Shown one piece after another: positions 3,732-51,041 of a stretch of 64,000 nt of DNA; positions within the stretch are counted from its first letter, which is position 1, and each line of letters starts with the position of its first letter. Origin of the DNA: Parvibaculum lavamentivorans DS-1. Lineage in GTDB: Bacteria; Pseudomonadota; Alphaproteobacteria; Parvibaculales; Parvibaculaceae. The notes under the pieces were generated by a model that worked only from the letters and a program-made list of their open reading frames with translations, did no database searches and was not told the DNA's origin. The position numbers and the translations under genes are program-made. The stretch spans positions 310,001 through 374,000 of the forward strand of contig NC_009719.1 of the NCBI RefSeq assembly GCF_000017565.1, given 5' to 3'.

Positions 3732-5066
3732 ATGGCCGATATTGCGCTGCCCTATAGCCAATCGCTCGACAACTGCTTTTCCGACGCGATCGGCGAAGGC
3801 GGGCTGACGAAGAAAGCCTATGACGCCGCGCTTGGCGAGGCGGAGAAGGCACTCGACTGGCTGCGCGCCGCCTACAAGAGCGGCGACCTGCCGCTGCTGC
3901 GCGTGCCGGAAAGGACCGACGACATCGCCCGCATCGAAGAGGTGGGCGAGGGGCTGCTCGACAACACGACCGATATTTTCATTTTCGGCATTGGCGGCTC
4001 GGCACTCGGCGCGCAGGCGCTGGCGCAGCTTAAAGGCTGGGGCACACAGGCGAACATCCAGAAGGGTGTGCGCATTCACATTCCCGACAATCTCGACCCC
4101 GTGACGATGGATGCGGTGTTTTCCAATGCCGACCTGCGGACGACGCGCTTTCTGGTCGTCTCGAAATCGGGCGGCACCGTGGAGCCCGCGATCCAGACGC
4201 TCTCGGCCATGAGCGCGCTCGAAAAGGCGGGCGGCGGGAAATACATGAAGCAGCATTTCGCGGTGCTGACCGAACCGGCGAAGAACGGCAAGCCGAACCC
4301 GATGCGGGCGCTCGCCGAAGCCCATGGCTTTCCGACGCTGGAGCACGATCCGGGCGTCGGCGGGCGCTATGCGGTGCTGACCAATGTCGGCCTGCTGCCG
4401 GCTTATCTGCTCGGCCTCGATGTGGCGGCGGTGCGGGCGGGCGCGGCGGCGGCGCTGAAGCCGGTGCTGAAAGGCGCGCCGGCGAAGGACGTGGCGCCTG
4501 CGGCGGGCGCGGCGCTTTCGGTCGCCATGGCGCGCGAGAAGGGCGCGGCGATGTCCGTTTTCCTCGCCTATGCCGACCGGCTGGAACGCTTTCTCGCCTG
4601 GCATTGCCAGCTCTGGGCCGAAAGCCTCGGCAAGGACGGGCAGGGCACAACGCCGGTGAAGGCGCTCGGCCCTGTCGACCAGCACAGCCAGTTGCAGCTT
4701 TGGCTGGCGGGCCCGCGCGACAAGCTTTTCACGGTTTTCATGACGGAAGCGAAGGGCAAGGGCCCCGAGGCGCTGGAAAGCATTGCGGGTGCGAGCGAAT
4801 TCGCCTTTCTCGGCGGCCGCAAGGTGGGCGACCTCGTCGATGCGGAGCAGCGCGCGACCGCCGATACGCTGGTGAAAAACGGCAGGCCGGTGAGAATTTT
4901 CTCGCTGAAGGAGCTGAACGAGGAGACGCTGGGCGCGCTCTTCATGCATTTCATGCTCGAAACCATCATCGCGGGCCGCATTCTCGGCGTCGATCCTTTT
5001 GACCAGCCGGCGGTGGAAGAGGGTAAGATACTGGCGAAGAAGTATCTGGCGGAAACGAAAGCCTGA
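3732..5066 (+). CDS. pgi: Glucose-6-phosphate isomerase
   Basis: This 444-residue cytosolic enzyme interconverts glucose 6-phosphate and fructose 6-phosphate. Family signatures are visible: [12 protein letters not shown] in the N-terminal sugar-isomerase domain, [10 protein letters not shown] for phosphate binding, and [18 protein letters not shown] near the C-terminal active site with its catalytic histidine. It belongs to the shorter bacterial PGI form (about 450 residues). It ends seven bases before mutL, so the two genes are probably cotranscribed although they are functionally unrelated. Confidence 0.97.
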
Positions 5067-5073
5067 CCCTGAC

Positions 5074-6882
5074 ATGAGCCGTATCCGGCGCCTGAGCGAA
5101 GGGACGATCAACCGCATCGCCGCCGGCGAAGTGGTGGAACGTCCCGCAAGCGCGGTGAAAGAGCTCGTCGAGAACGCGCTCGATGCGGGCGCGCGCCATA
5201 TCGACATCGTGATCGATGGCGGCGGCCGCGACCTCATCCGTGTCACCGATGACGGTATCGGCATGAACGCGGAGGAACTTGCGCTCGCCGTCGAGCGCCA
5301 CGCGACCTCGAAACTCCGCATCGATGCGGGCGGACAGGAGGATCTTCACGACATCGCGACGCTCGGCTTTCGCGGCGAGGCGCTGCCCTCGATCGGCGCG
5401 GTGGCGAGGCTCTCGATCGTCAGCCGCACGCGCGACGCCGACAGCGCCGAACGGATCTCGGTGGAAGGCGGCCGCGTGACAGACGTCGAGCCTGCCTCCG
5501 GCCGGGCGGGTACGCAGATCGAAGTGCGGGATCTCTTCTATGCAACGCCCGCGCGCCTGAAATTCATGAAGAGCGAGCGCGCCGAAACGCTGGCGGTGTC
5601 GGATGTGGTGAAGCGGCTCGCCATGGCGCATCCAGAAGTCGGCTTCACGCTGACAAGCGCGGAGCGGAACCTGCTGCGGCTTGAACCGGAACTGCCGGGC
5701 GATGCCGGACGGCTGATGCGGCTCGGCGCCATCATGGGCCGCGACTTCGCGGAGAACGCCATCGCCATCGACGCCATGCGCGAGGAGATAGGGCTCGCCG
5801 GTTTTGCAGGACTGCCGACCTATAATCGCGGTACGGCGCAGATGCAGTATCTCTTCGTCAATGGCAGGCCCGTGCGCGACAAGCTGCTGGTCGGCGCGGT
5901 GCGCGGCGCCTATGCGGATTTCCTTGCCCGCGACCGGCACCCGGCGGTGGCGCTTTTTGTCACCATCGATCCGCGCGATGTCGATGTGAATGTGCACCCG
6001 GCCAAGGCGGAGGTCCGCTTTCGCGATGCGGGGCTCGTGCGCGGGCTGATCGTCGGCGCGTTGAAGCGGGCGCTTGCGGAGGCAGGACACCGCGCCTCGA
6101 CAACGGTGGCGGGCGCGACGCTCGATGCGCTGCGGCCGGAAATGGCGGCGGCATCGCCTGCCTATACGGGCACATGGCGGCCCGAGCCGCGGCCGGGCTT
6201 TGCCGAAGAACGCGGGGCCTGGCAGGGCGCCTTCGCGGGCCTCGCCGCGCAATCGGCCCGTGTCGAGCCGCTGCCGGAAAGCGGCGCGGAGACGGCGGCG
6301 GGCTTCGCGCTCGGCGTCGCGCGCGGGCAATTGCATGAAACCTATGTGATTGCCCAGACGGCGGACGGCATCGTCATTGTCGACCAGCACGCGGCGCATG
6401 AACGCCTCGTCTATGAGCGGATGAAAAAGGCGATGGCGGCGCAGGGCGTGTCGCGGCAGATGCTACTCATTCCCGAAGTGGTGGAGCTGGACGAGGCGGA
6501 GGCCGAGCGCCTGGCCGCACGCGTGGGCGAACTTGCCGAACTCGGCTTTGTGCTCGAAGCCTTCGGCACGGGCGCGGTGGTTGTGCGCGAGGTGCCGTCG
6601 ATCTTCGGCAAGCTCGACGTGCAGGCGCTGGTGCGCGACCTCGCAGACGACCTCACCGAACTCGACGAGGCCTTGTCGCTGAAGGAAAAGCTGGAGGAAG
6701 TCTGCGGCACCATCGCCTGCCACGGCTCGGTCCGCGCGGGGCGGCGGCTGACGGCGGAGGAGATGAACGCGCTCCTGCGCGAGATGGAGGCGACGCCCCA
6801 TTCCGGCCAGTGCAATCACGGCCGCCCGACCTATGTCGAACTGAAGCTCTCCGATATCGAGCGGCTATTCGGCCGGCGCTGA
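5074..6882 (+). CDS. mutL: DNA mismatch repair protein MutL with endonuclease site
   Basis: The 602-residue product has the GHKL ATPase domain at the N terminus ([10 protein letters not shown] with Glu30/Glu33, DDGIGM at 59-64, GFRGEAL near 95) and the dimerisation domain at the C terminus. The latter contains [12 protein letters not shown] from residue 437, which matches the metal-binding endonuclease motif DQHA(x)2E(x)4E, plus ACHGSV with Cys549 and CNHGRPT with Cys580, the other conserved elements. This is the nicking form of MutL found in bacteria that lack MutH. The ATG at 5074 is seven bases after the pgi stop. The 3' end overlaps the convergent HAD gene by 18 bases. Confidence 0.97.
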
Positions 6883-41804: not shown

Positions 41805-42542
41805 TCAGGCCTTGCTTGCGGCAGGCACGCTCCCGAGTAGCCGGTCCGCCCAGGCATCGCCCGCGATGCGCGCGATCTCGCCTTCGGGCGGCGCGCTGCC
41901 GGCGACCTCTACCTTGACGTTCATGCGATCCGTCCAAGTGATGCTGTTCGTCTTGCAGGAGAAGGCCGAGAGGTCGACCACCCGCGTGTTGTTGGCGCGC
42001 TCGAGCGACCACATGTTTTTGTTGAAGTTGATCCCCTGATCGGCGGCAAAGAGGACGAGATCCGCTTTGGTCGCCTTGCAGATCGAGCCGTAGAACGCCG
42101 ACTGTTCCTGGGCGGTCATGAGACCGCCAACGGGCTGTCTCCCGGTCTTGCTGAGCGCCTCGGCGGTGGCGTTCGGCGACAACACATCGAAGCGGCCCGT
42201 CGAGTGCAGCCGTTCGGTCAGTTGTATCTCGCGAACGCCATTTTGCCAGACGGCAATCCGACGAACCTCCGGCGTGAGGGGCGTTGTGGAGCCGCCCGTC
42301 TCGAATGCCACTTCGGCGGTGCCACCGGTCGTTGTCTGGAAGGTTTTGTATCCCTGGAAGCCGCTAACGGCAGCCATGCCGACGGTCATCGGGATCAAAG
42401 CCGCGGCGCATCCGCTGAGAAGGAGGGAAGCCGCCGTCGCGATCACAAGAGAGGGAAGCGGCCTTCCCCTTGTCCGGTATCCTTCAGCCCCACCGGCCCG
42501 AACTGTGTCGGAATCCTCACAGGTGCCCACCCATCCACGCAT
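41805..42542 (-). CDS. Putative lipoprotein
   Basis: From the ATG at 42542 this is 245 residues. A hydrophobic stretch (SLVIATAASLLLSGC) ends in a clear lipobox with Cys45; the 30 residues before it are unusual, so the true start may be internal. The mature protein has TPEVRRIAVWQNGVREIQLTERL-like segments that resemble lipoproteins of envelope assemblies, but I cannot name a family. It is the last backbone gene before cargo 2, and the left palindrome of that cargo lies 15 bases upstream of its ATG. Confidence 0.6.
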   Translation of the reverse strand: MRGWVGTCEDSDTVRAGGAEGYRTRGRPLPSLVIATAASLLLSGCAAALIPMTVGMAAVSGFQGYKTFQTTTGGTAEVAFETGGSTTPLTPEVRRIAVWQNGVREIQLTERLHSTGRFDVLSPNATAEALSKTGRQPVGGLMTAQEQSAFYGSICKATKADLVLFAADQGINFNKNMWSLERANNTRVVDLSAFSCKTNSITWTDRMNVKVEVAGSAPPEGEIARIAGDAWADRLLGSVPAASKA

Positions 42543-42556
42543 CGAAACCCCCCGAT

Positions 42557-42581
42557 TGAACAGAATGAGCAATTCTGTTCA
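42557..42581 (+). repeat. Left 25-bp palindrome of the tyrosine-recombinase segment
   Basis: Ten-base arms TGAACAGAAT and ATTCTGTTCA surround the centre GAGCA. The same 25 bases occur at 45318-45342 in the opposite orientation, so the centre there reads TGCTC. The form (inverted arms and a short asymmetric centre) is that of a tyrosine-recombinase core site. Confidence 0.7.
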
Positions 42582-42627
42582 GCCAGCCGTCGGGACCTAT
42601 AGAAGCCGATCCACTGCTACGCCCGTG

Positions 42628-43287
42628 ATGTTGAATCTGGATCTTCTGTGTTATGATTACTTATACGTGTTGAATGAAAAAGTAATACTTCTGGCGCGGC
42701 ACGGGACAACACACTGGACACAAGAAGGGCTTTACAATTCGCATACAGATGTACCTCTTATTCCAGCCGGAAGAGACGAAATATTGCGGGCTGCCCATAC
42801 GGTCATAGGCCGCAATGTGAAAAACATTCTCTGCTCACCGTTGCGAAGAACACGAGAAAGCGCCGCGATATTTTCCGATACATTGGGGGTGGCGGTGGAA
42901 ACTGACGAGCGACTCCGAGAGCTCAACTTCGGGCTATTTGAAGGCCAAACGCGTCGTGACCTGTCCGCTCCTCCATTTGCAGACGAATTTTTCCGCTGGA
43001 CCGACGAAACAGTTCCGTACTCTCCCCCAGGAGTAGAAAGCTTCTCCACGGCCAAAGAGCGTATCGTTGATTTTATTCGGGATACCATCGAAATTCCGGG
43101 CCCGACCCTTGTTGTGTCGCATGGTGTGATTCTGAGAATTCTACTCTGCGTGTGCGTTCTTGGGATAGAGCCGCATCATTTCCGTAGGCTGCAGATAGAC
43201 GTCGGTAGCATTTCTGAAATCCGTCTAGATCGGTCCCGGTTACAACTCTGGACTCTAAACACTACGACGCCTCGCGACCTTACATGA
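42628..43287 (+). CDS. Histidine phosphatase (phosphoglycerate mutase-like)
   Basis: A protein of up to 219 residues with the catalytic LLARHGTTHW motif, LCSPLRRTRESA, ELNFGLFEGQT and LVVSHGVILRILL, covering all the active-site segments of the branch-1 histidine phosphatases. These remove phosphate from small molecules such as sugar phosphates or nucleotide intermediates. Starts at ATG 42628 and at GTG 42667 or TTG 42670 are all possible; the later ones give the usual short N terminus. None has a clear ribosome-binding site. The gene opens the three-gene cargo of the recombinase segment. Confidence 0.85.
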   Translation: MLNLDLLCYDYLYVLNEKVILLARHGTTHWTQEGLYNSHTDVPLIPAGRDEILRAAHTVIGRNVKNILCSPLRRTRESAAIFSDTLGVAVETDERLRELNFGLFEGQTRRDLSAPPFADEFFRWTDETVPYSPPGVESFSTAKERIVDFIRDTIEIPGPTLVVSHGVILRILLCVCVLGIEPHHFRRLQIDVGSISEIRLDRSRLQLWTLNTTTPRDLT

Positions 43288-43320
43288 CGACAAGGACGGA
43301 ACTAATGGAGAGATACCAAC

Positions 43321-44028
43321 ATGGAGCTGCCCGAGAAGATAGCGGCGATGCATGCCGATCTTGATTCGATTTGGCCCACCGGTCGCAATCCTGAGTGCCT
43401 GCCAAATGATGGCGGACACTTTACGCTTAAGGGATACACTCGACCCGTTTCAATTGGGCGCATTGAAGCGTTTCTTCTGTTCAATCTGGTTCGAGTGCTG
43501 AACATTCGCACAGCTTTCGAGATCGGGACCGGCTTCGGCTATTCCAGCTTCTGGATTGCTGCTGGCGTGATCGAGAACGACAAAGGGGGATGGGTCGGAA
43601 GCATTGACAGTCAGCAAGAAGGTGGACTTGGGGTACATGGTCTCGATTTCGCCAGACGATGGTCAAACATCATCGGGTTGGATTCGGTTCTGCATTTCTT
43701 TACTGGCAAGTCCCCCGATGACCTTTCTCACGTTATTCGAGAGCCACTGGGCCTTGCGTTCATTGATGGCAATCACTACGGAGAGCAACCTGTACTAGAC
43801 TACACGGGATTGCAGCCTCATCTTTTGCAAGATGGAATTTTAGTTTGGCACGACATTGAAAAGAAATACGGGGTTAATGCCGCGATAGCCGCGTCCATCA
43901 AAGATGGTTGGTCTCTAGTGACATTTCCAACCAGCTGCAGGATAGGCGTCTCCTATCGCACCCTGGCCGGATGGCAGGCGGCAACCGAAGCGTTTTCGGC
44001 GGCAAGAAACCTCCAAATTATCCACTAG
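43321..44028 (+). CDS. Class I SAM-dependent methyltransferase
   Basis: The 235-residue protein has the SAM-binding motif FEIGTGFGYSSFW, the acidic FIDGNHYGEQPVLDY region and LVWHDI, as in Methyltransf_24-type enzymes that methylate small molecules or sugars. It follows the histidine phosphatase gene by 33 bases and precedes the phosphoribosyltransferase-like gene by 15, so the three are probably one operon. Substrate unknown. Confidence 0.82.
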   Translation: MELPEKIAAMHADLDSIWPTGRNPECLPNDGGHFTLKGYTRPVSIGRIEAFLLFNLVRVLNIRTAFEIGTGFGYSSFWIAAGVIENDKGGWVGSIDSQQEGGLGVHGLDFARRWSNIIGLDSVLHFFTGKSPDDLSHVIREPLGLAFIDGNHYGEQPVLDYTGLQPHLLQDGILVWHDIEKKYGVNAAIAASIKDGWSLVTFPTSCRIGVSYRTLAGWQAATEAFSAARNLQIIH

Positions 44029-44043
44029 GGTGCGGAGGGACCT

Positions 44044-44661
44044 ATGCCTGAGGCGATCGCACAAACCGCAGCTTTCCTCGTGGGTATTGCTTCTAGCGTT
44101 GTAGCTGCACTCCTCTTTACCGCAATCTCGACGAAGTACAATGCACGCTTCAGTTTCCGGCGCATCGTGGCTTTGGTACTCGAACTAGCGGAACAACTCC
44201 AGAATGACGGCTTCACTCCCGACTTCATCGTTGCGATTGACCGAAATTCGACAATAACCGGCGGAATATTGGCTGGAAATCTCGGTCTTAAAACAGTGAT
44301 AAGTGTGGCAACAATCAGCTGTAGGCGGAATGACGGTTCGCGAGAAACCATTGTTGCTCAAGGCTATACCTTGGACGCTGACGCCCTTTCGGGAAAGAAA
44401 GTGCTAGTTTATATATGCTTTAACGACTCCGGGACATCGCTCGATACGGTTGCACGTCAGGTAATGTCGACGGAGAAAAGTCCCTCCGATGTCAGAACAG
44501 CTGCTCTCTTTACGACTTCGTCACCTCGCTTTATGCCGAAGTATTTTGCGAGAAAAGTAGGGACGGACCTTCGAATCCCAATTCATCTCATCATGCAGAG
44601 AATGCCTTGGGTCACTCCAACGTGGAAACACGTGCTGGGGAGCGAACGACTACGCCGGTAG
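44044..44661 (+). CDS. Membrane-anchored phosphoribosyltransferase-like protein
   Basis: A 205-residue protein with an N-terminal membrane helix (about residues 6-28) and a type I phosphoribosyltransferase fold. The fold is suggested by FIVAIDRNSTITGGILAGNLG and by VLVYICFNDSGTSLDTV, which occupies the PRPP-loop position. The usual acidic pair of that loop (V-D-D or E-D) is replaced by F-N-D, so activity may be altered. Such proteins occur next to nucleotide-processing defence genes, but its role here is unknown. Confidence 0.65.
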   Translation: MPEAIAQTAAFLVGIASSVVAALLFTAISTKYNARFSFRRIVALVLELAEQLQNDGFTPDFIVAIDRNSTITGGILAGNLGLKTVISVATISCRRNDGSRETIVAQGYTLDADALSGKKVLVYICFNDSGTSLDTVARQVMSTEKSPSDVRTAALFTTSSPRFMPKYFARKVGTDLRIPIHLIMQRMPWVTPTWKHVLGSERLRR

Positions 44662-44670
44662 GCATTTTTG

Positions 44671-45252
44671 TCAGGTTAAATTGTGCCACAGTCTGCTTGC
44701 GAATTCCCTCTCTTCGTCGCCAACAGCGTCAACGTAGATAGCAGTAGTCGACAGACGGGAGTGCCCCAACCATTTCTGAACAACACTCAGAGGCACATTC
44801 CGCTGGGTTGCTTCGATACCGAATGCGTGGCGCAGCGCTTTTGGCATTGCATGACTACCCACGATGCCGGCGCTTTCCATAGCCTGCTTTACCCAGCTCC
44901 AAGCGGTGGTTCGTCCGATGCGCCAGACGCGATTTTCGCCTCTAGTGGTACGCGGGCGCGCCCGCGAAAGCTCATGGATCTCGTTCAAATCCCGCAGAAG
45001 TGCTCTTGGCACCGGAATCGATCTGAACACGCCGCCCCTCCTCTTCTTGAGACTTTCGATGATCACAACGCCAGCATCGACATCTACCCGCTCAGGTGTG
45101 AGGGCCAGAATCTCCGAGATCCTTGCGCCGGTGTATGTCAGAACTAGGCAGAAAGTGCGTGCGCTAGGATCCAACCCAGCAGCTGCGGCCACAAACGCCT
45201 CTCTCTCGGCAAGCGTCAGGTACTTTCGACGCCCTTTCTGATCATAAATCAT
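44671..45252 (-). CDS. Short tyrosine recombinase (catalytic domain only)
   Basis: A 193-residue recombinase lacking the N-terminal arm-binding and core-binding domains of the usual 300-residue integrase. Catalytic residues are Arg44 (TGARISE), a Lys in ESLKKRR, Arg141 in KALRHAF (the preceding His of HxxR is Lys138), His164 in WLGHSRLSTT and the nucleophile Tyr173. Its start lies 66 bases from the right 25-bp palindrome. The reduced size and the inverted sites resemble small invertases or element-end recombinases. Confidence 0.9.
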   Translation of the reverse strand: MIYDQKGRRKYLTLAEREAFVAAAAGLDPSARTFCLVLTYTGARISEILALTPERVDVDAGVVIIESLKKRRGGVFRSIPVPRALLRDLNEIHELSRARPRTTRGENRVWRIGRTTAWSWVKQAMESAGIVGSHAMPKALRHAFGIEATQRNVPLSVVQKWLGHSRLSTTAIYVDAVGDEEREFASRLWHNLT

Positions 45253-45317
45253 AACCTAAATTGACTTTCGACACTCAAAGCTGAGAGAAGAAAGAGGTTG
45301 ACCTGATTACTATTAAG

Positions 45318-45342
45318 TGAACAGAATTGCTCATTCTGTTCA
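45318..45342 (-). repeat. Right 25-bp palindrome, inverted copy
   Basis: Arms TGAACAGAAT and ATTCTGTTCA around TGCTC. It is the exact reverse complement of 42557-42581. It lies upstream of the tyrosine recombinase gene and downstream of the small acidic gene that ends the QueC-like operon. Confidence 0.7.
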
Positions 45343-45433
45343 AACTATATTGAATTATACTTGATCAAGCACGCAAACGCTAAACGCGTTGGCGTCAACG
45401 TATGATTTGAAGAACATCAGCGAATGTTGGGAT

Positions 45434-45784
45434 TCATTTGTAGAACGAAGACGTATCTGCGGTGACCTGAGAGACCGTGATAGTTCCGCCATCGTCGCTT
45501 AGTTCGCCTTCAAATTTTCCTGGGAAACTCTCTGATATCGTAATTCCACCATCGTCGTCATCGTAATTTAGCGTGACGTGCCACAAGATAGGGCCGAAGA
45601 AGTGTTTGTCCGTGACGAATATCTCATCCTCAAACGTCTCCAATGAGTCTACGACCGTATTGAATGACAAGACGGATAGGTCTTGCCAAGCATCAGTGGT
45701 GGAGACATCTGTCGCGCGTAATATACGGACGATACGCTCCTTCAAGTCTTGCGCTTTTTCCTCGTCAATCTCCGACATCGCCAC
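45434..45784 (-). CDS. Small acidic hypothetical protein, last gene of the QueC-like operon
   Basis: A 114-116-residue protein with acidic stretches (NYDDDDGGITISE, GELSDDGGTITVS) and predicted beta strands. No family recognised. The GTG at 45784 overlaps the stop of the FRG gene (TAGTG), and an ATG two codons later is equally possible. As the partner of an FRG-domain protein it could be an immunity or antitoxin protein, but that is conjecture. Confidence 0.6.
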   Translation of the reverse strand: MAMSEIDEEKAQDLKERIVRILRATDVSTTDAWQDLSVLSFNTVVDSLETFEDEIFVTDKHFFGPILWHVTLNYDDDDGGITISESFPGKFEGELSDDGGTITVSQVTADTSSFYK

Positions 45785-46584
45785 TATCCAATGATTGTAG
45801 ACCCAATGCCAATCCGTGCCTCATAACGCCACTTCAGCGTTGCACAGAGACCGTCGAGATCTGCCCAAATGTGACTGTCATCGATTCCAAGGCGAAAAAG
45901 GCGCCTCCGAAAGCGTGCACGTAGATGATCTGGAATGGTGAAGCTGTTCTTTTCGAACGCTTCCGGCTCCCAAGGAACATTCGGTTCGGGGTGGACGGAA
46001 AAAAGGCCTCTTTGACTGATGATACGAGGCACACTCTTGGCAGGTAGAAGAAACTGCAACCTAGTCAGATCAAATGGATCCGTTTGCACCTTTGTGTCGA
46101 CAAGCTCTTCGTCGCTCAAACTGTGCGCGTAGATGACGGAGCCATCCTTGGCGCTTTTGGCATCGACAGTTGATACCGCGAAGAATGCGGCAACTAGAGG
46201 ATTGGTCGTCCAGTCGAGCAGTCGGGTAGGGAGACCATGATGCTGGGCCAAGGCGAGCCATTCCCAGTCGTCTGTAGGTCTCACGGTTAGAAAAAATCCT
46301 GCAGATTTCTGAAAGGCGCGAAACACCCTAATTTCGTCTGTTAGGTCGTAATTTGGCAGGCGCCCTAAACTGGGAATGCACTTGTGCAGCCGCGAGGCAC
46401 ATCCGCGAAATATCCACCTCGTATGACTCCGTTCATCTATGAATTTCAGGAAGTTCATCCAGACGTCCCTAGCTTCCTTGGCGGTGCTAGCGAGCTCCGC
46501 GGTAGATTTGGGGGCGTGTTGACGTGGTCGCCGGTCGGCGCCACGCCGTCGTCTTGAGGCAGATAAATGGGGCAACGTCTTCAT
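45784..46584 (-). CDS. FRG-domain protein
   Basis: The 266-residue protein contains the FRG domain: WIFRGCAS near residue 57 and LALAQHHGLPTRLLDW with NPLVAAFFA after it. FRG domains are found in toxins, phage-defence and abortive-infection proteins, and are thought to modify or cleave nucleotide-type substrates. The N-terminal 35 residues are basic and low-complexity. The ATG overlaps the stop of the second PfkB-like gene (ATGA), so it belongs to the QueC-like operon; it is a plausible effector. Confidence 0.85.
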   Translation of the reverse strand: MKTLPHLSASRRRRGADRRPRQHAPKSTAELASTAKEARDVWMNFLKFIDERSHTRWIFRGCASRLHKCIPSLGRLPNYDLTDEIRVFRAFQKSAGFFLTVRPTDDWEWLALAQHHGLPTRLLDWTTNPLVAAFFAVSTVDAKSAKDGSVIYAHSLSDEELVDTKVQTDPFDLTRLQFLLPAKSVPRIISQRGLFSVHPEPNVPWEPEAFEKNSFTIPDHLRARFRRRLFRLGIDDSHIWADLDGLCATLKWRYEARIGIGSTIIG

Positions 46585-47750
46585 TGGTCGAAACCCCGAA
46601 GCGTAAGGTAAAGTGCTGTTGTGTAGTCGGTAGTTATATGTGCGTTTGGAAGGATGTTCTGAACACCGCCCGGAGCGTCGGGCCAGTATACAACCGTTGG
46701 TAATCCCGACGTGATCTCGGAATATCTGCCAATCATATCCTGATCCCAGCGAGGGCCGACCAAAATCAGGAATGACGTTGTATCTTCGGTTCCTCCGGTG
46801 AAGTCTCCAAATAGGTCCACCGTAGCCTTGCCGCCCAGCTCGACGATCCAGTCGGCCGTGTGCAGTAGGAGCGTCTCGAACTCCAGCATGCCCTGCCCCA
46901 ACAAACGTACGACACCTGCCTGCGGCATCCCTGGCGTTGCCTTCGGAAGTCGATCTTTCGGAGGTAGGGGAAGTCGAGGACCGTCAACGAAGTACGCTAC
47001 GCACTGTGCTGCATATTCTGCCGCGTTCATTGGCGAACTCTTCTCTTCGGCCCATGCATGCGCAAAGGCCGCGGCAAAAACATCCCCGGAGCCGATCCTG
47101 AAATAACTCTCTGCTGCGACTGGTGGTATTCTTAGAGGATTGTCGTCGCTGGTATAAAGTCGAGCTCCACCCAGCCTATCCTTGAGGAGAAGAAGAAATT
47201 CACCTCGTGGTTTCGTGTCAAATAACTCGGTGATTGCCTCTCTCAATGAGCTAGAACGGTCATCTTCATCGCACTGCAGCCCGGCTAGCGAGAATAGCTC
47301 CCGCTCTGTTAAAATGAGAGCGAGGTTCTCTGCCTCTGACCCGTTGGCCGCAAAGGGTGCTGGCTTGGGTGACTGTGGATCATAGACCACGCGATTACCG
47401 CTTACTCGGGCATCTCCCTCAATTAATCCGAATCTGAGAACGGACTGTCCTTCAACTTCGAGTCGCTGCGCGGCCTCAGTTGGCTCAGTGCAGGCTGCAA
47501 GCTCGAATGGGTGGAGATAGTCAAACGTCACGCCCTTTTCAATTTGTGTTAACTGTCGCGCGATACCAAAGGAGTCCAAAGTTGCGACAATATCGTTGTG
47601 CCAAGGCTCTGCAGCATAAGCATGCAATTCCACATTGATTGTCACCGAACTAAGCGCAACTGCAGAGCGCAGTCCGGACCCGTAAAGTTGATTCCACCGA
47701 GGAAAGCGGCACCTTTCCGCGTATATGCCACCGGCAATCAGCATAGTCAT
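46581..47750 (-). CDS. PfkB-like carbohydrate/nucleoside kinase protein A
   Basis: A 389-residue protein. Residues 1-265 follow the PfkB fold: it starts MTMLIAGGIYAERCRFP, and RIGSGDVFAAAFAHAW at 218-233 holds the family's GxGD catalytic motif (GSGD 220-223). Residues 280-389 form a further Rossmann-like domain (FLILVGPRWDQDMIGRY) at the place where the paralogue at 48726-49910 has a nucleoside-deoxyribosyltransferase. The ATG overlaps the stop of the upstream small gene (ATGA), as in the paralogous pair. Phosphorylation of a nucleoside or modified base ribonucleoside is inferred. Confidence 0.8.
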   Translation of the reverse strand: MTMLIAGGIYAERCRFPRWNQLYGSGLRSAVALSSVTINVELHAYAAEPWHNDIVATLDSFGIARQLTQIEKGVTFDYLHPFELAACTEPTEAAQRLEVEGQSVLRFGLIEGDARVSGNRVVYDPQSPKPAPFAANGSEAENLALILTERELFSLAGLQCDEDDRSSSLREAITELFDTKPRGEFLLLLKDRLGGARLYTSDDNPLRIPPVAAESYFRIGSGDVFAAAFAHAWAEEKSSPMNAAEYAAQCVAYFVDGPRLPLPPKDRLPKATPGMPQAGVVRLLGQGMLEFETLLLHTADWIVELGGKATVDLFGDFTGGTEDTTSFLILVGPRWDQDMIGRYSEITSGLPTVVYWPDAPGGVQNILPNAHITTDYTTALYLTLRGFDQ

Positions 47751-48091
47751 CTTCTCCGTACAAAGACCATGCATCGGGTTGGGGACGCCGCTTGTACGAC
47801 CGCGACGTATGATTCCCCTTGACGAAGGCAGCCTATTAGTCGAGCCAAGCCACGAAAGGCAGCTAGTGTTCCGGCGACTTCTCCTCTTTCGTCCGCGCAA
47901 ACAACGCTAGTCACCGCGCCATTCGTCTTCAGGGTGACTAGCAACTCGTCTCCAAAAGAAAGGGAGGAGGTGATCTCGGGTTGGACACCAACCAAATCCA
48001 CGGTGAAAGAGAGGTCACAATCGTCCGCTCCTTGGGGATCTTCTGGTTGGTAGGGGTTCCTGTTGCCCTTGTTAACAGCGTACCCGCCCAT
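47747..48091 (-). CDS. Small beta-rich protein A (paralogue of 49907-50248)
   Basis: A 114-residue protein beginning MGGYAVNKGN, a flexible 20-residue tail, then a compact domain. It is clearly homologous to the protein at 49907-50248: both share D-x-C-D, LSFGDELLVT versus LHIGDSLNVT, SVVC versus SAVC, and GLARLIGCLRQGESYVAVV versus GLVALINCLERGESYTVVV (each within 20 residues). It starts 44 bases after queC and overlaps the next PfkB-like gene. No known family recognised. Confidence 0.75.
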   Translation of the reverse strand: MGGYAVNKGNRNPYQPEDPQGADDCDLSFTVDLVGVQPEITSSLSFGDELLVTLKTNGAVTSVVCADERGEVAGTLAAFRGLARLIGCLRQGESYVAVVQAASPTRCMVFVRRR

Positions 48092-48135
48092 GAGTTACCT
48101 CCGCCGATATTGCGCTAGTTCTGGCTTCGCACCAG

Positions 48136-48729
48136 CTAAGATGTGCCTTGCGGGAATGCCTCGTCGACTACCTCTCTGTGCTTGATACAACCACTGCATT
48201 GGCCACAAGCATATCTGTGCAAGTGACATGAGAACGTCACTCCAATTAGTTCTCGTGGAAAACTCGATAGCTTGAGAAGCTCGGTGCTGGTGAGGTTCTG
48301 GGCCGGAGCGGTTACTGTGACACAGCCCTCCTGAAGCCGCATTAGGGCATTCAATGTTTGAATAAAGCGAACGCTTCCGTCCGCGTGGAGATCGGTGGCA
48401 ACCGTCCCTATCATGAGTTCTCTGAGGCCTATCGGCTGCAAGAGCATCGCAGCTAGTGTGACAAGCATCTGGTTCCTATAAGGCCAAAACTCCGGCGCTG
48501 CGCCCCCAAGGGCTGTTTCCCGTCCTGCCATCGATCCGGAGCCCAAGGAGGATAAATCCACGCTTATAAGTTTATGTTCGAGGTGAAGTTCGCTACAGAT
48601 AGCCCGAGACGCTGCGGCTTCGCCAAGTGCCGCTTGTTGACCATAGTCCAGGGTCACGCAGATGTCTGGGCGCGTCCAGTGCGCCAGCGCAGACGAGTCG
48701 ATTCCGCCCGAAAGTAACAAAGCTTTCAT
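48136..48729 (-). CDS. QueC-like 7-deazaguanine synthase homologue
   Basis: The 197-residue protein has the PP-loop ATP-binding motif SGGIDS at residues 7-12, WPYRNQ at the QueC substrate-binding position (P-x-R-N), and the zinc site Cys168, Cys175, Cys178, Cys181 in SCHLHRYACGQCSGC. QueC converts carboxy-deazaguanine to the nitrile via an adenylate. Homologues in type IV CBASS (Cap9) and in QatABCD (QatC) act in phage defence. The ATG overlaps the stop of the PfkB/NDT fusion gene. The context, with no queuosine genes, argues for the defence type instead of tRNA modification. Confidence 0.88.
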   Translation of the reverse strand: MKALLLSGGIDSSALAHWTRPDICVTLDYGQQAALGEAAASRAICSELHLEHKLISVDLSSLGSGSMAGRETALGGAAPEFWPYRNQMLVTLAAMLLQPIGLRELMIGTVATDLHADGSVRFIQTLNALMRLQEGCVTVTAPAQNLTSTELLKLSSFPRELIGVTFSCHLHRYACGQCSGCIKHREVVDEAFPQGTS

Positions 48730-49910
48730 CGCATGGCCGCCCACATGGCGTGATAGACCGCCGTGCATATGTCGCCGACAATATGACAATCTGTTCCTTC
48801 GAGCATAGTGAGGCTCTCCGGTCTGGGCAGTTCAGATAAGATAACAACCGGGATTTTGCAGCGGCGCGCGTATCCAATCTCAAAGAGTGTGCCGGCATCT
48901 TCGCCATCCAAGACTGCTAAAATCGAACCAGCCTCCTCAAGACCCTTCAGATCGCGGGTGGCGATATCTTTGGACGTTCCTGACGAACCAACATTGTGGA
49001 GGGGAGAAAAGACGCGACCGCCTACCGAACGCAGCCCGTTGCGTATTTCTTCTACCGCCCACCGCTGACCGAGGTTGAAAAATGGTGCGGCTACATAAAT
49101 ATGCCGTCCCTTATATTCACCGAATACAGGGGTTTGGGGCTGGCAGTCCGCAAGGGAAATTTGGGCGGCACGGCTGCCCACATAGTGAGACACTGCGGAG
49201 GAAGCCCGATGGGCTGCCTCAACCGGAGAGGTGCGTTGTTCGGCCCAGAGTGCTGCAAATATCGCAGAGAAGATGTCACCGGAGCCGATTTTGAATACGT
49301 CACTGGACCGATAGGAGGGAATGGGTGTTGTTGTCCCTGCATCCCAAACGGTGGCCCCATGTGGTCCACGTTTTACTACTATGACTTCTGCGCCAGATAT
49401 ATCACAGAGTTTCTCGGCTGCAGCGTCACCATTAGTCCCGGTGCTCAACTCCAATTCAGTTTCGTTGAGGACGATGGCAAGCTTGTTCGCTTTTGAACCA
49501 TTCTTGCTGAAGTTGAGCGCCTCACTCCAGTGCTGAGGATCGTAGACAGCTCTATCAGCCTTGACGATTGCATCACCCTCAACAAAACCGAAGCGTAAAA
49601 CTGCTGCTCCTTCGACTCGATGGGGAGTTGCTACGTGGGCGATTGGGTGCGGTGTGAGGACCGGTACCGAGAGTGGATGGAAATAGGAGAAGGTGATGTC
49701 TGCCTCGATCTCAACGAGATGAGGATCTACTCCGAAGTTGGTCATTGAGATGCGTACATCTTCGGCCCATTCTCGTGAAGCGTATGCATATAAGGCGCTG
49801 CCGGGTGAGATTCTTGATATCGCTGCCGCTGCGCGACCCCCAGAACCAAAGATGCGAGACCAATTCGGCCAAACGCATTCTTCGCGATATACGCCCCCCG
49901 CCACTATCAT
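48726..49910 (-). CDS. PfkB-like/nucleoside 2-deoxyribosyltransferase fusion (protein B)
   Basis: A 394-residue fusion. Residues 1-255 are PfkB-like, starting MIVAGGVYREECVWP and carrying KIGSGDIFSAIFAALW with GSGD at 209-212. Residues 270-390 match the nucleoside deoxyribosyltransferase fold: HIYVAAPFFN, AVLDGEDAG with Asp335 and TLFEIGYA with the likely nucleophile Glu344. NDT-like domains cut or exchange the base of a deoxynucleoside. The fusion could hydrolyse or sense nucleotides. The ATG overlaps the stop of the upstream small gene. Confidence 0.85.
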   Translation of the reverse strand: MIVAGGVYREECVWPNWSRIFGSGGRAAAAISRISPGSALYAYASREWAEDVRISMTNFGVDPHLVEIEADITFSYFHPLSVPVLTPHPIAHVATPHRVEGAAVLRFGFVEGDAIVKADRAVYDPQHWSEALNFSKNGSKANKLAIVLNETELELSTGTNGDAAAEKLCDISGAEVIVVKRGPHGATVWDAGTTTPIPSYRSSDVFKIGSGDIFSAIFAALWAEQRTSPVEAAHRASSAVSHYVGSRAAQISLADCQPQTPVFGEYKGRHIYVAAPFFNLGQRWAVEEIRNGLRSVGGRVFSPLHNVGSSGTSKDIATRDLKGLEEAGSILAVLDGEDAGTLFEIGYARRCKIPVVILSELPRPESLTMLEGTDCHIVGDICTAVYHAMWAAMR

Positions 49911-50248
49911 CGAGAATTCCTGCCGCCTGCCACGTGGCAGTAGGTAGGCCCCAGCCTGGTCACTACGACAGTGTATGACTCCCCCCGTTCCAAGCAATTG
50001 ATTAGTGCGACTAAGCCTGGGAACGCGGTTAGCGAGCCGACAATCTCGTCGTCACGCGAAACACATACCGCAGAGCGTATTTGCCCGCGTCGATGGATTG
50101 TCACGTTGAGGGAATCGCCGATATGAAGGTTCCGAAGGACATCCACATTCACCCCCTCAAGATCAATGTCGATCTCGATGTCGCACGGGTCTACGTCTTC
50201 GGGAGGGGGACGACGAGGTGTCGAATCGGGTGGAAGTTTGCCTGACAA
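49907..50248 (-). CDS. Small beta-rich protein B (paralogue of 47747-48091)
   Basis: A 113-residue protein that begins MSGKLPPDSTPRRPPPEDV, a disordered Pro-rich tail, followed by the same domain as its paralogue (D-P-C-D, GDSLNVT, SAVC, GSLTAFPGL, CLERGESYTVVV). Each copy directly precedes and overlaps a PfkB-like gene. A conserved M-x-G start on an otherwise divergent tail is notable. Function unknown. Confidence 0.75.
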   Translation of the reverse strand: MSGKLPPDSTPRRPPPEDVDPCDIEIDIDLEGVNVDVLRNLHIGDSLNVTIHRRGQIRSAVCVSRDDEIVGSLTAFPGLVALINCLERGESYTVVVTRLGPTYCHVAGGRNSR

Positions 50249-50318
50249 CGAATCTATCTCCCCAAGTAAAGGAGATCTGATTATGGCTACAAACTGCGGC
50301 TGCGAACAGTAGAGAGTG

Positions 50319-51041
50319 TTACCGTGTTAGTGTGCGCATTTCACGCCACATCAACGCATCCAGCAGCGAAGCGGGGACTTGGAGAGCGCTCGCAAACTCA
50401 AGGAAGCGCATCTCAAGGCTTTGGTAATCACGAGGAAGTGTCACTTGTGTTGGGAACAGACCGATGATCTGCCCTGCTCGAAGGACGTGTATGTCCAAAA
50501 TTGCCACCTCGTTCGAACCTGTCCAATTGCGAACAATCCAAGACGCTGTCTTGGGGCCCACCCCGGGGAGTGACATCAGCTCTGATCGTAGTTCTAGGGG
50601 CGCCTCAGTTGAAAACGTCCGCGAGCCCAGAAATGCAATAGCCGCCGCAACTCTAGCCGCGCGCTGACGAGGAAATCTGTACCTAACTTGGCGGCCCGCA
50701 ACTGAGAGAGGCTTCCTTAGAAGGAGCTCAATTTCCTCTGCCGAAGGAGAGCTCTGGGGGGCCAGTACATCGGCCCGTTTCAGGCGATTCCATGCGGCGC
50801 GGTTGATTTCCATCTTCACGCCGTAACCCCCAAGTAGGCAGAAAACAACATCTTCAACTAGCGGCGTGCCAGTCGGGCTGACGTAGTTCTCTGCAAAGGG
50901 ACCTTCCTGCAGCGCTCGTTCAGCCCAAAATGCAGGGCTTGGCACCCATTCGGGGCGACCGAATTTAACACCCGGGACAACCTCATCATCAGGAGCAAAT
51001 TCGGAGCGGTAGAAAATGGTGGCATGCTTCATGTTATGCAT
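50319..51041 (-). CDS. OGG1-type HhH-GPD DNA glycosylase/lyase
   Basis: The 240-residue protein has the helix-hairpin-helix SLPGVGPKTASW with the presumed lyase Lys164 and the catalytic Asp183 in AILDIHVLR, both at the positions used by 8-oxoguanine glycosylases. It is diverged from housekeeping MutM or OGG. OGG-like proteins are accessory genes (Cap8) of type IV CBASS. It is the first gene of the QueC-like operon, 70 bases upstream of small protein B. Starts at 51041 or 51032 are possible. Confidence 0.85.
   Translation of the reverse strand: MHNMKHATIFYRSEFAPDDEVVPGVKFGRPEWVPSPAFWAERALQEGPFAENYVSPTGTPLVEDVVFCLLGGYGVKMEINRAAWNRLKRADVLAPQSSPSAEEIELLLRKPLSVAGRQVRYRFPRQRAARVAAAIAFLGSRTFSTEAPLELRSELMSLPGVGPKTASWIVRNWTGSNEVAILDIHVLRAGQIIGLFPTQVTLPRDYQSLEMRFLEFASALQVPASLLDALMWREMRTLTR

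Follow-up and report, generated by a model that had tools for sequence, protein, structure and literature searches.

FimB and FimE, the invertases that act on the short inverted sites of fimS in Escherichia coli, are about 200 amino acids long and have no separate N-terminal core-binding domain. XerA and XerH are examples of a single recombinase working on a near-palindromic core at dif. Tyrosine recombinases in general combine a core-binding domain with a catalytic domain (PMC8138268). The closest parallel to the locus described here is offered by the plasmid dif (pdif) modules of Acinetobacter, in which genes lie between inversely oriented core sites with distinct XerC and XerD arms and recombination depends on host XerCD. 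Single modules with accessory cargo are replaced between near-identical backbones, identical or nearly identical 6-bp spacers are needed, the orientation of the sites precludes single-module excision, and further experimental work is needed on the movement of single modules (PMC13141974). A tyrosine recombinase and terminal inverted repeats also occur together in strand-biased circularizing integrative elements, which are described as gammaproteobacterial and integrative, with circular forms (PMC10214605).

Here, we analysed a 64-kb window of the Parvibaculum lavamentivorans DS-1 genome (the whole stretch of 64,000 nucleotides), focusing on a 2.8-kb segment at 42557-45342 that contains, between two inverted sites, three plus-strand accessory (cargo) genes and its own minus-strand tyrosine recombinase gene. 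With a probability of about 0.72, we consider this segment to be a self-mobilising gene module that undergoes spacer-matched site-specific recombination and acts like the Acinetobacter dif modules.

Both bounding sites are palindromes of a 10-5-10 layout. The left site, distal to the recombinase gene (42557..42581), reads TGAACAGAAT-GAGCA-ATTCTGTTCA, and the right, recombinase-proximal site (45318..45342) is its inverted copy, TGAACAGAAT-TGCTC-ATTCTGTTCA, with 2736 nt separating the arms of the two. The identical inverted 25-bp sites reported in the preliminary description were confirmed as exact reverse complements, and the match reaches 26 bp with one flanking base (42556-42581 / 45318-45343). 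Searching for TGAACAGAAT-N5-ATTCTGTTCA with at most three mismatches returned two matches in the window, namely the pair itself, and none in 100 shuffles. The whole 3.9-Mb genome holds the same two exact copies and one unrelated match with three mismatches, at position 460,790. A TATA-like motif (TATATT/TATACT) lies 3-9 bp beyond the recombinase-end site in the window (45344-45352) and in L027, L028, L030, L031, L095 and L097, that is, in Parvibaculum and in two unrelated elements, and is absent beyond the distal end; it may belong to the element or reflect a preferred target.

The first cargo gene (42667..43287, plus strand, GTG or TTG start) encodes a member of the histidine phosphatase superfamily (PF00300, 3e-44) that is CobC-like, although its match to the NCBIfam cobC model (2.1e-33) falls under the cut-off of that model. 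It is followed on the same strand by genes for a SAM-dependent methyltransferase (43321..44028; PF13578, 2.5e-19) and for a phosphoribosyltransferase-like protein with an N-terminal hydrophobic stretch (44044..44661; PF00156, 6.8e-08). Outside the module, the left flank is occupied by a lipoprotein-type gene on the minus strand (41805..42542), whose Shine-Dalgarno-like GGGGGG at 42548-42553 lies a few bases from the left site. The neighbours named previously were thus right on the left side only: the genes directly to the right encode a pPIWI-associated-nuclease-domain protein and an FRG-domain protein, and the QueC-like gene stands 2.8 kb further on. More broadly, the stretch at 45434-51041 comprises these two genes, two PfkB-type genes (one fused to a nucleoside deoxyribosyltransferase), the QueC-like gene and an Ogg-HhH-type glycosylase gene, a possible nucleotide-modification or defence cluster. 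A fall in G+C content, from 0.63 to 0.51, coincides with the 500-bp bin holding the left site; since low values persist past the right site up to about 52 kb, the module lies at the edge of a larger variable region. Given the genes for a large serine recombinase and for ParB-like, TrwB/TraG-like and Replic_Relax proteins in the neighbourhood, this region probably sits inside an integrated element.

The recombinase gene (44671..45252, minus strand), whose start lies 65 nt inward of the right site, encodes 193 amino acids. A catalytic-domain-only protein had been proposed, and the sole Pfam match is indeed PF00589 (Phage_integrase catalytic domain, 5.5e-21), which spans residues 11-175, with about 13 residues preceding the first helix. 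This size is unusual for tyrosine recombinases, though common to FimB/FimE. Across 15 relatives, the motif residues R44, K69, K138-x-x-R141, H164 and Y173 show complete or nearly complete conservation. The AlphaFold2 model (pLDDT 84) has as its closest solved folds XerA (5hxy, TM 0.72) and XerH on its palindromic difH (5jjv, TM 0.75). Among NCBIfam models, the protein falls near XerA and the FimB/FimE invertases, under every cut-off; the FimB/FimE family model NF007371 matches residues 8-175 (4.7e-14) with 52 bits against a cut-off of 222. An integron gene cassette, which would have folded attC sites and an IntI integrase at a single integration platform, was rejected as a description of the module since no integron integrase is involved (48 bits against a cut-off of 435 and 44 against 265 for NCBIfam integron models) and a recombinase lies inside each module. 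No close copy was found in phage and plasmid collections, and a peptide-pattern search for the recombinase in genome contigs gave no match. Relatives on plasmids share 48-51% identity and are located close to genes for partition and replication; a TGAACAG site was not observed upstream of these relatives. In Sphingomonas (L101), the recombinase gene of a relative stands between unrelated 24-bp inverted repeats (3892-3915 and 4714-4737); this arrangement, which has a pilus operon that includes an EAL-domain gene on one side and a response regulator on the other, may be the same design built on a different site.

Four other Parvibaculum genomes (G014, G022, G023 and G035) carry an inverted pair with the centre GAGCA and, just inside one site, a homologous recombinase gene whose product is 57-64% identical to that of the window. 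From site to site, the five Parvibaculum modules measure 2.8, 4.0, 4.9 (with an assembly gap), 5.5 and 9.7 kb, and their cargo is unrelated: an HAD phosphatase and a protein kinase in G014; radical-SAM/SPASM genes, a seryl-tRNA synthetase homologue and a PP-loop ATPase in G022; a PurA homologue and a nucleotide-kinase-like protein in G023; and a SIR2-STAND-TPR protein in G035. Because the cargo differs among all the Parvibaculum modules, we dropped the idea that it constitutes one metabolic or defence system. The G022 module (L028 8027-16700) holds two radical-SAM/SPASM-like genes and an aldo-keto-reductase-like gene beside the ATPase and synthetase genes, a content that suggests a small-molecule or peptide biosynthetic cluster.

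G014 and G022 offer a natural before/after comparison. Outside the sites, they are identical at 2250/2250 bases next to the recombinase end and at 5499/5500 beyond the distal end (99.98-100%), and the similarity ends at the sites. Inside, the recombinase ends alone can be aligned (about 60-80% per 100 bp), the cargo is unrelated, and the G014 recombinase groups with that of G023 in the recombinase tree, not with that of G022. The host mutL genes are 80.5% identical; with near-identical flanks and different interiors, this indicates a cassette exchanged precisely at the sites. Both modules occupy the same host element and lie on long contigs at comparable distances from mutL (about 55 and 46 kb), which argues against contamination; the G014 assembly has a gap at the distal site. 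The comparison provides direct evidence for the 25-bp sites as recombination junctions and for replacement of the module content, recombinase included, as a unit. A module exchanged earlier could have passed between these two genomes through homologous recombination in its flanks. Just outside the recombinase-end site, both genomes carry a gene for a 5-hmdU DNA kinase helical-domain protein (PF18723, 1.2e-102; L028 17832-18899).

Beyond Parvibaculum, a scan of 84,980 genomes found the exact site in 23 stretches, an approximately 100-fold excess over the roughly 0.2 that we estimate to arise by chance in 257 Gb. The stretches come mostly from alphaproteobacterial MAGs, together with Magnetococcales, Formivibrio and one Filimonas (likely a chance match), and mostly adjoin this recombinase; some exact sites, e.g. 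L087 10053, L090 and L080, have no detectable recombinase nearby. Whole-genome searches and flank retrieval yielded 19 elements with both ends, from Alphaproteobacteria, Magnetococcales and one Formivibrio MAG. Read from outside to inside, the 5-bp centre is the same at both ends in 19/19 elements, or in 17/17 when L094 and L097, whose pairs were identified on the condition that the centres match, are set aside. Eleven centres occur, each beginning with G. The two ends differ at 0/95 centre positions against 44/377 arm positions, and 10,000 shuffles gave at least 16 mismatches every time. Single-base changes between related elements (GCTGT/GCCGT and GGGAT/GGGGT) are present at both ends. Strand exchange between the ends, or spacer-dependent compatibility, would produce such matching, and concerted evolution of the two ends is clear. 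Five elements (L086, L088, L095, L096 and L152) consist of little but site, recombinase and site, over about 0.7 kb, and L083 has sites with no detected recombinase. Across the other members of the family, Parvibaculum modules included, the cargo comprises HNH, TIR with nucleoside phosphorylase, HTH, SIR2-STAND and radical-SAM genes. The two-gene cargo at L084 8123-10001, a CAP12/Pycsar-type TIR protein and a nucleoside phosphorylase-like protein, is a possible compact defence system.

In the preliminary description, the locus was taken for a phase-variable or self-inverting element. According to such a reading, the 2.8-kb block would flip in place, an outward promoter would toggle the lipoprotein gene (and the cargo), and the variety of cargo would be incidental. 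The inverted, spacer-matched sites are a proper substrate, inversion is to be expected on chemical grounds and may account for the matched spacers, and the FimB/FimE model covers nearly the full length of the recombinase. A GTCAA/TTGAC box starts 16 bp inside the recombinase-end site (5 bp, one helical turn less, in one subgroup) in nearly all elements; in the window, it belongs to a putative outward promoter (45298..45327, plus strand; TTGACC, 18 nt, then CAGAAT in the inner arm), the sole promoter-like match in the region. If the block were inverted, the box would point at the lipoprotein gene, the Shine-Dalgarno-like stretch of which is next to the left site. In three more distant relatives (L032, L035 and L107), the DNA directly upstream of the recombinase gene contains a fimS-like inverted pair with a spacing of about 105-125 bp; in L035 and L107, these 18-19-bp repeats, 107-123 bp apart, look like small invertible promoter segments. 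Several observations weigh on the other side. Promoter-like matches are not above chance (1 found against 2.9 expected from shuffles), the outward promoter of the window faces a convergent gene, and the gene at the distal site is not the same between genomes. The five Parvibaculum copies all lie the same way round, their recombinase end pointing away from the lipoprotein-type gene; were inversion free and the copies independent, such agreement would have a chance of 1/16, mild evidence against frequent flipping or for a selected orientation. The inversion substrate proposed earlier is supported, but evidence of both orientations was not found among these copies and the transferable module had been overlooked. 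We regard a phase-variable switch as rather unlikely; the exchangeable module that we favour may also be able to flip, although flipping was not seen among the five copies.

The existence of recombinase-only elements and the several copies per genome at unrelated positions with differing flanks, together with the recombinase-less L083, would suit an IS-like transposon with 25-26-bp terminal inverted repeats, whose 0.7-kb form is autonomous and whose cargo-bearing forms are compound. We find this improbable. Same-genome copies are not near-identical, and one-step movement of an inverted-site segment by a tyrosine recombinase has no known pathway. No target-site duplication was seen by eye in the aligned flanks of the elements, and relatives showed no empty site: the lipoprotein gene was found in G000 and G023 alone and the HMUDK-domain flank gene in G014 and G022 alone, and the joined flanks of the L084 element matched distant single-sided homologues. 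A tyrosine recombinase at one end, variable cargo and low G+C are likewise what a conventional integrative element would show, with attL and attR formed by integration of the attP of a circle into attB. Such attL and attR sites share their overlap in direct orientation, whereas the centres are inverted in 19/19 elements, and the divergent outer half-sites are common to copies at unrelated positions in the GCTGT group, hence not target-derived. On account of the spacer orientation, we rejected this tyrosine-integrase genomic island as highly improbable. Least credible is that the palindromes are operators of a regulator with nothing to do with recombination. It would accommodate the exact sites lying apart from any detectable recombinase, but the sites pair around recombinases with matched centres and the exchange boundaries in G014 and G022 fall at the palindromes, for which reason it was discarded.

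For the spacer-matched module, we propose that the Fim/Xer-like, catalytic-domain-only recombinase, which we infer to be the catalyst, acts on the two inverted 25-bp core sites. Strand exchange would take place in the 5-bp centre, GAGCA in Parvibaculum, and therefore only sites with the same centre would recombine together. If modules with GAGCA sites came together in one cell on two replicons or conjugative elements, their contents would be swapped whole once the first and then the second site pair had recombined, by cointegrate formation and resolution or by double exchange. Recombination between the sites of a single module would invert it and keep its two centres identical. Free exchange combined with inversion would give both orientations, and the uniform 5/5 count speaks against that combination.

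Like dif modules, the elements place genes between inversely oriented core sites (19/19 elements), are replaced singly between near-identical backbones, carry accessory cargo and show matched spacers (0/95 end differences), and their inverted sites preclude simple excision. Unlike dif modules, they encode the recombinase inside each module, down to 0.7-kb recombinase-only forms; both arms are TGAACAGAAT instead of distinct XerC and XerD arms served by host XerCD; the centre is 5 bp long; and they occur in chromosomes and integrated elements, mainly of Alphaproteobacteria, rather than on plasmids. By analogy, they appear to work like dif modules but are not members of that class. With Fim enzymes, they share a recombinase of similar size that would act on short inverted sites; they are set apart by the low score to the Fim family model and, from fimS itself, by a unit of 0.7-9.7 kb with the recombinase inside, variable cargo, exchange between genomes and no observed flip. 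XerA and XerH, similar in fold and in the use of a single recombinase on a near-palindromic core, differ in having an N-terminal core-binding domain, in acting at dif and in lying outside cargo-bearing modules. From the strand-biased elements, the present ones differ in that they have one recombinase gene and palindromic sites with matched spacers.

Searches of an open-access literature library turned up no account of such elements, and their novelty is provisional to the extent of that coverage. Tentatively, and with slightly less than even confidence, we suggest that they form a previously undescribed family of self-contained mobile modules, minimally a 0.7-kb site-recombinase-site unit, in which the 5-bp spacer would serve as a compatibility code, self-inversion would keep the spacers identical, and defence-like or metabolic cargo would be swapped at fixed loci in Alphaproteobacteria and relatives. 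For dif modules, the way in which a single module between inverted recombinase sites moves has yet to be settled; here, the in-module recombinase, the homotypic 25-bp sites and the natural before/after pairs make exchange and inversion testable with one protein and two short sites. The family also provides a compact recombinase whose choice of partner seems to be set by a 5-bp centre, and 10-5-10 palindromes with matched centres provide a search key for accessory and defence-like cargo outside known islands.
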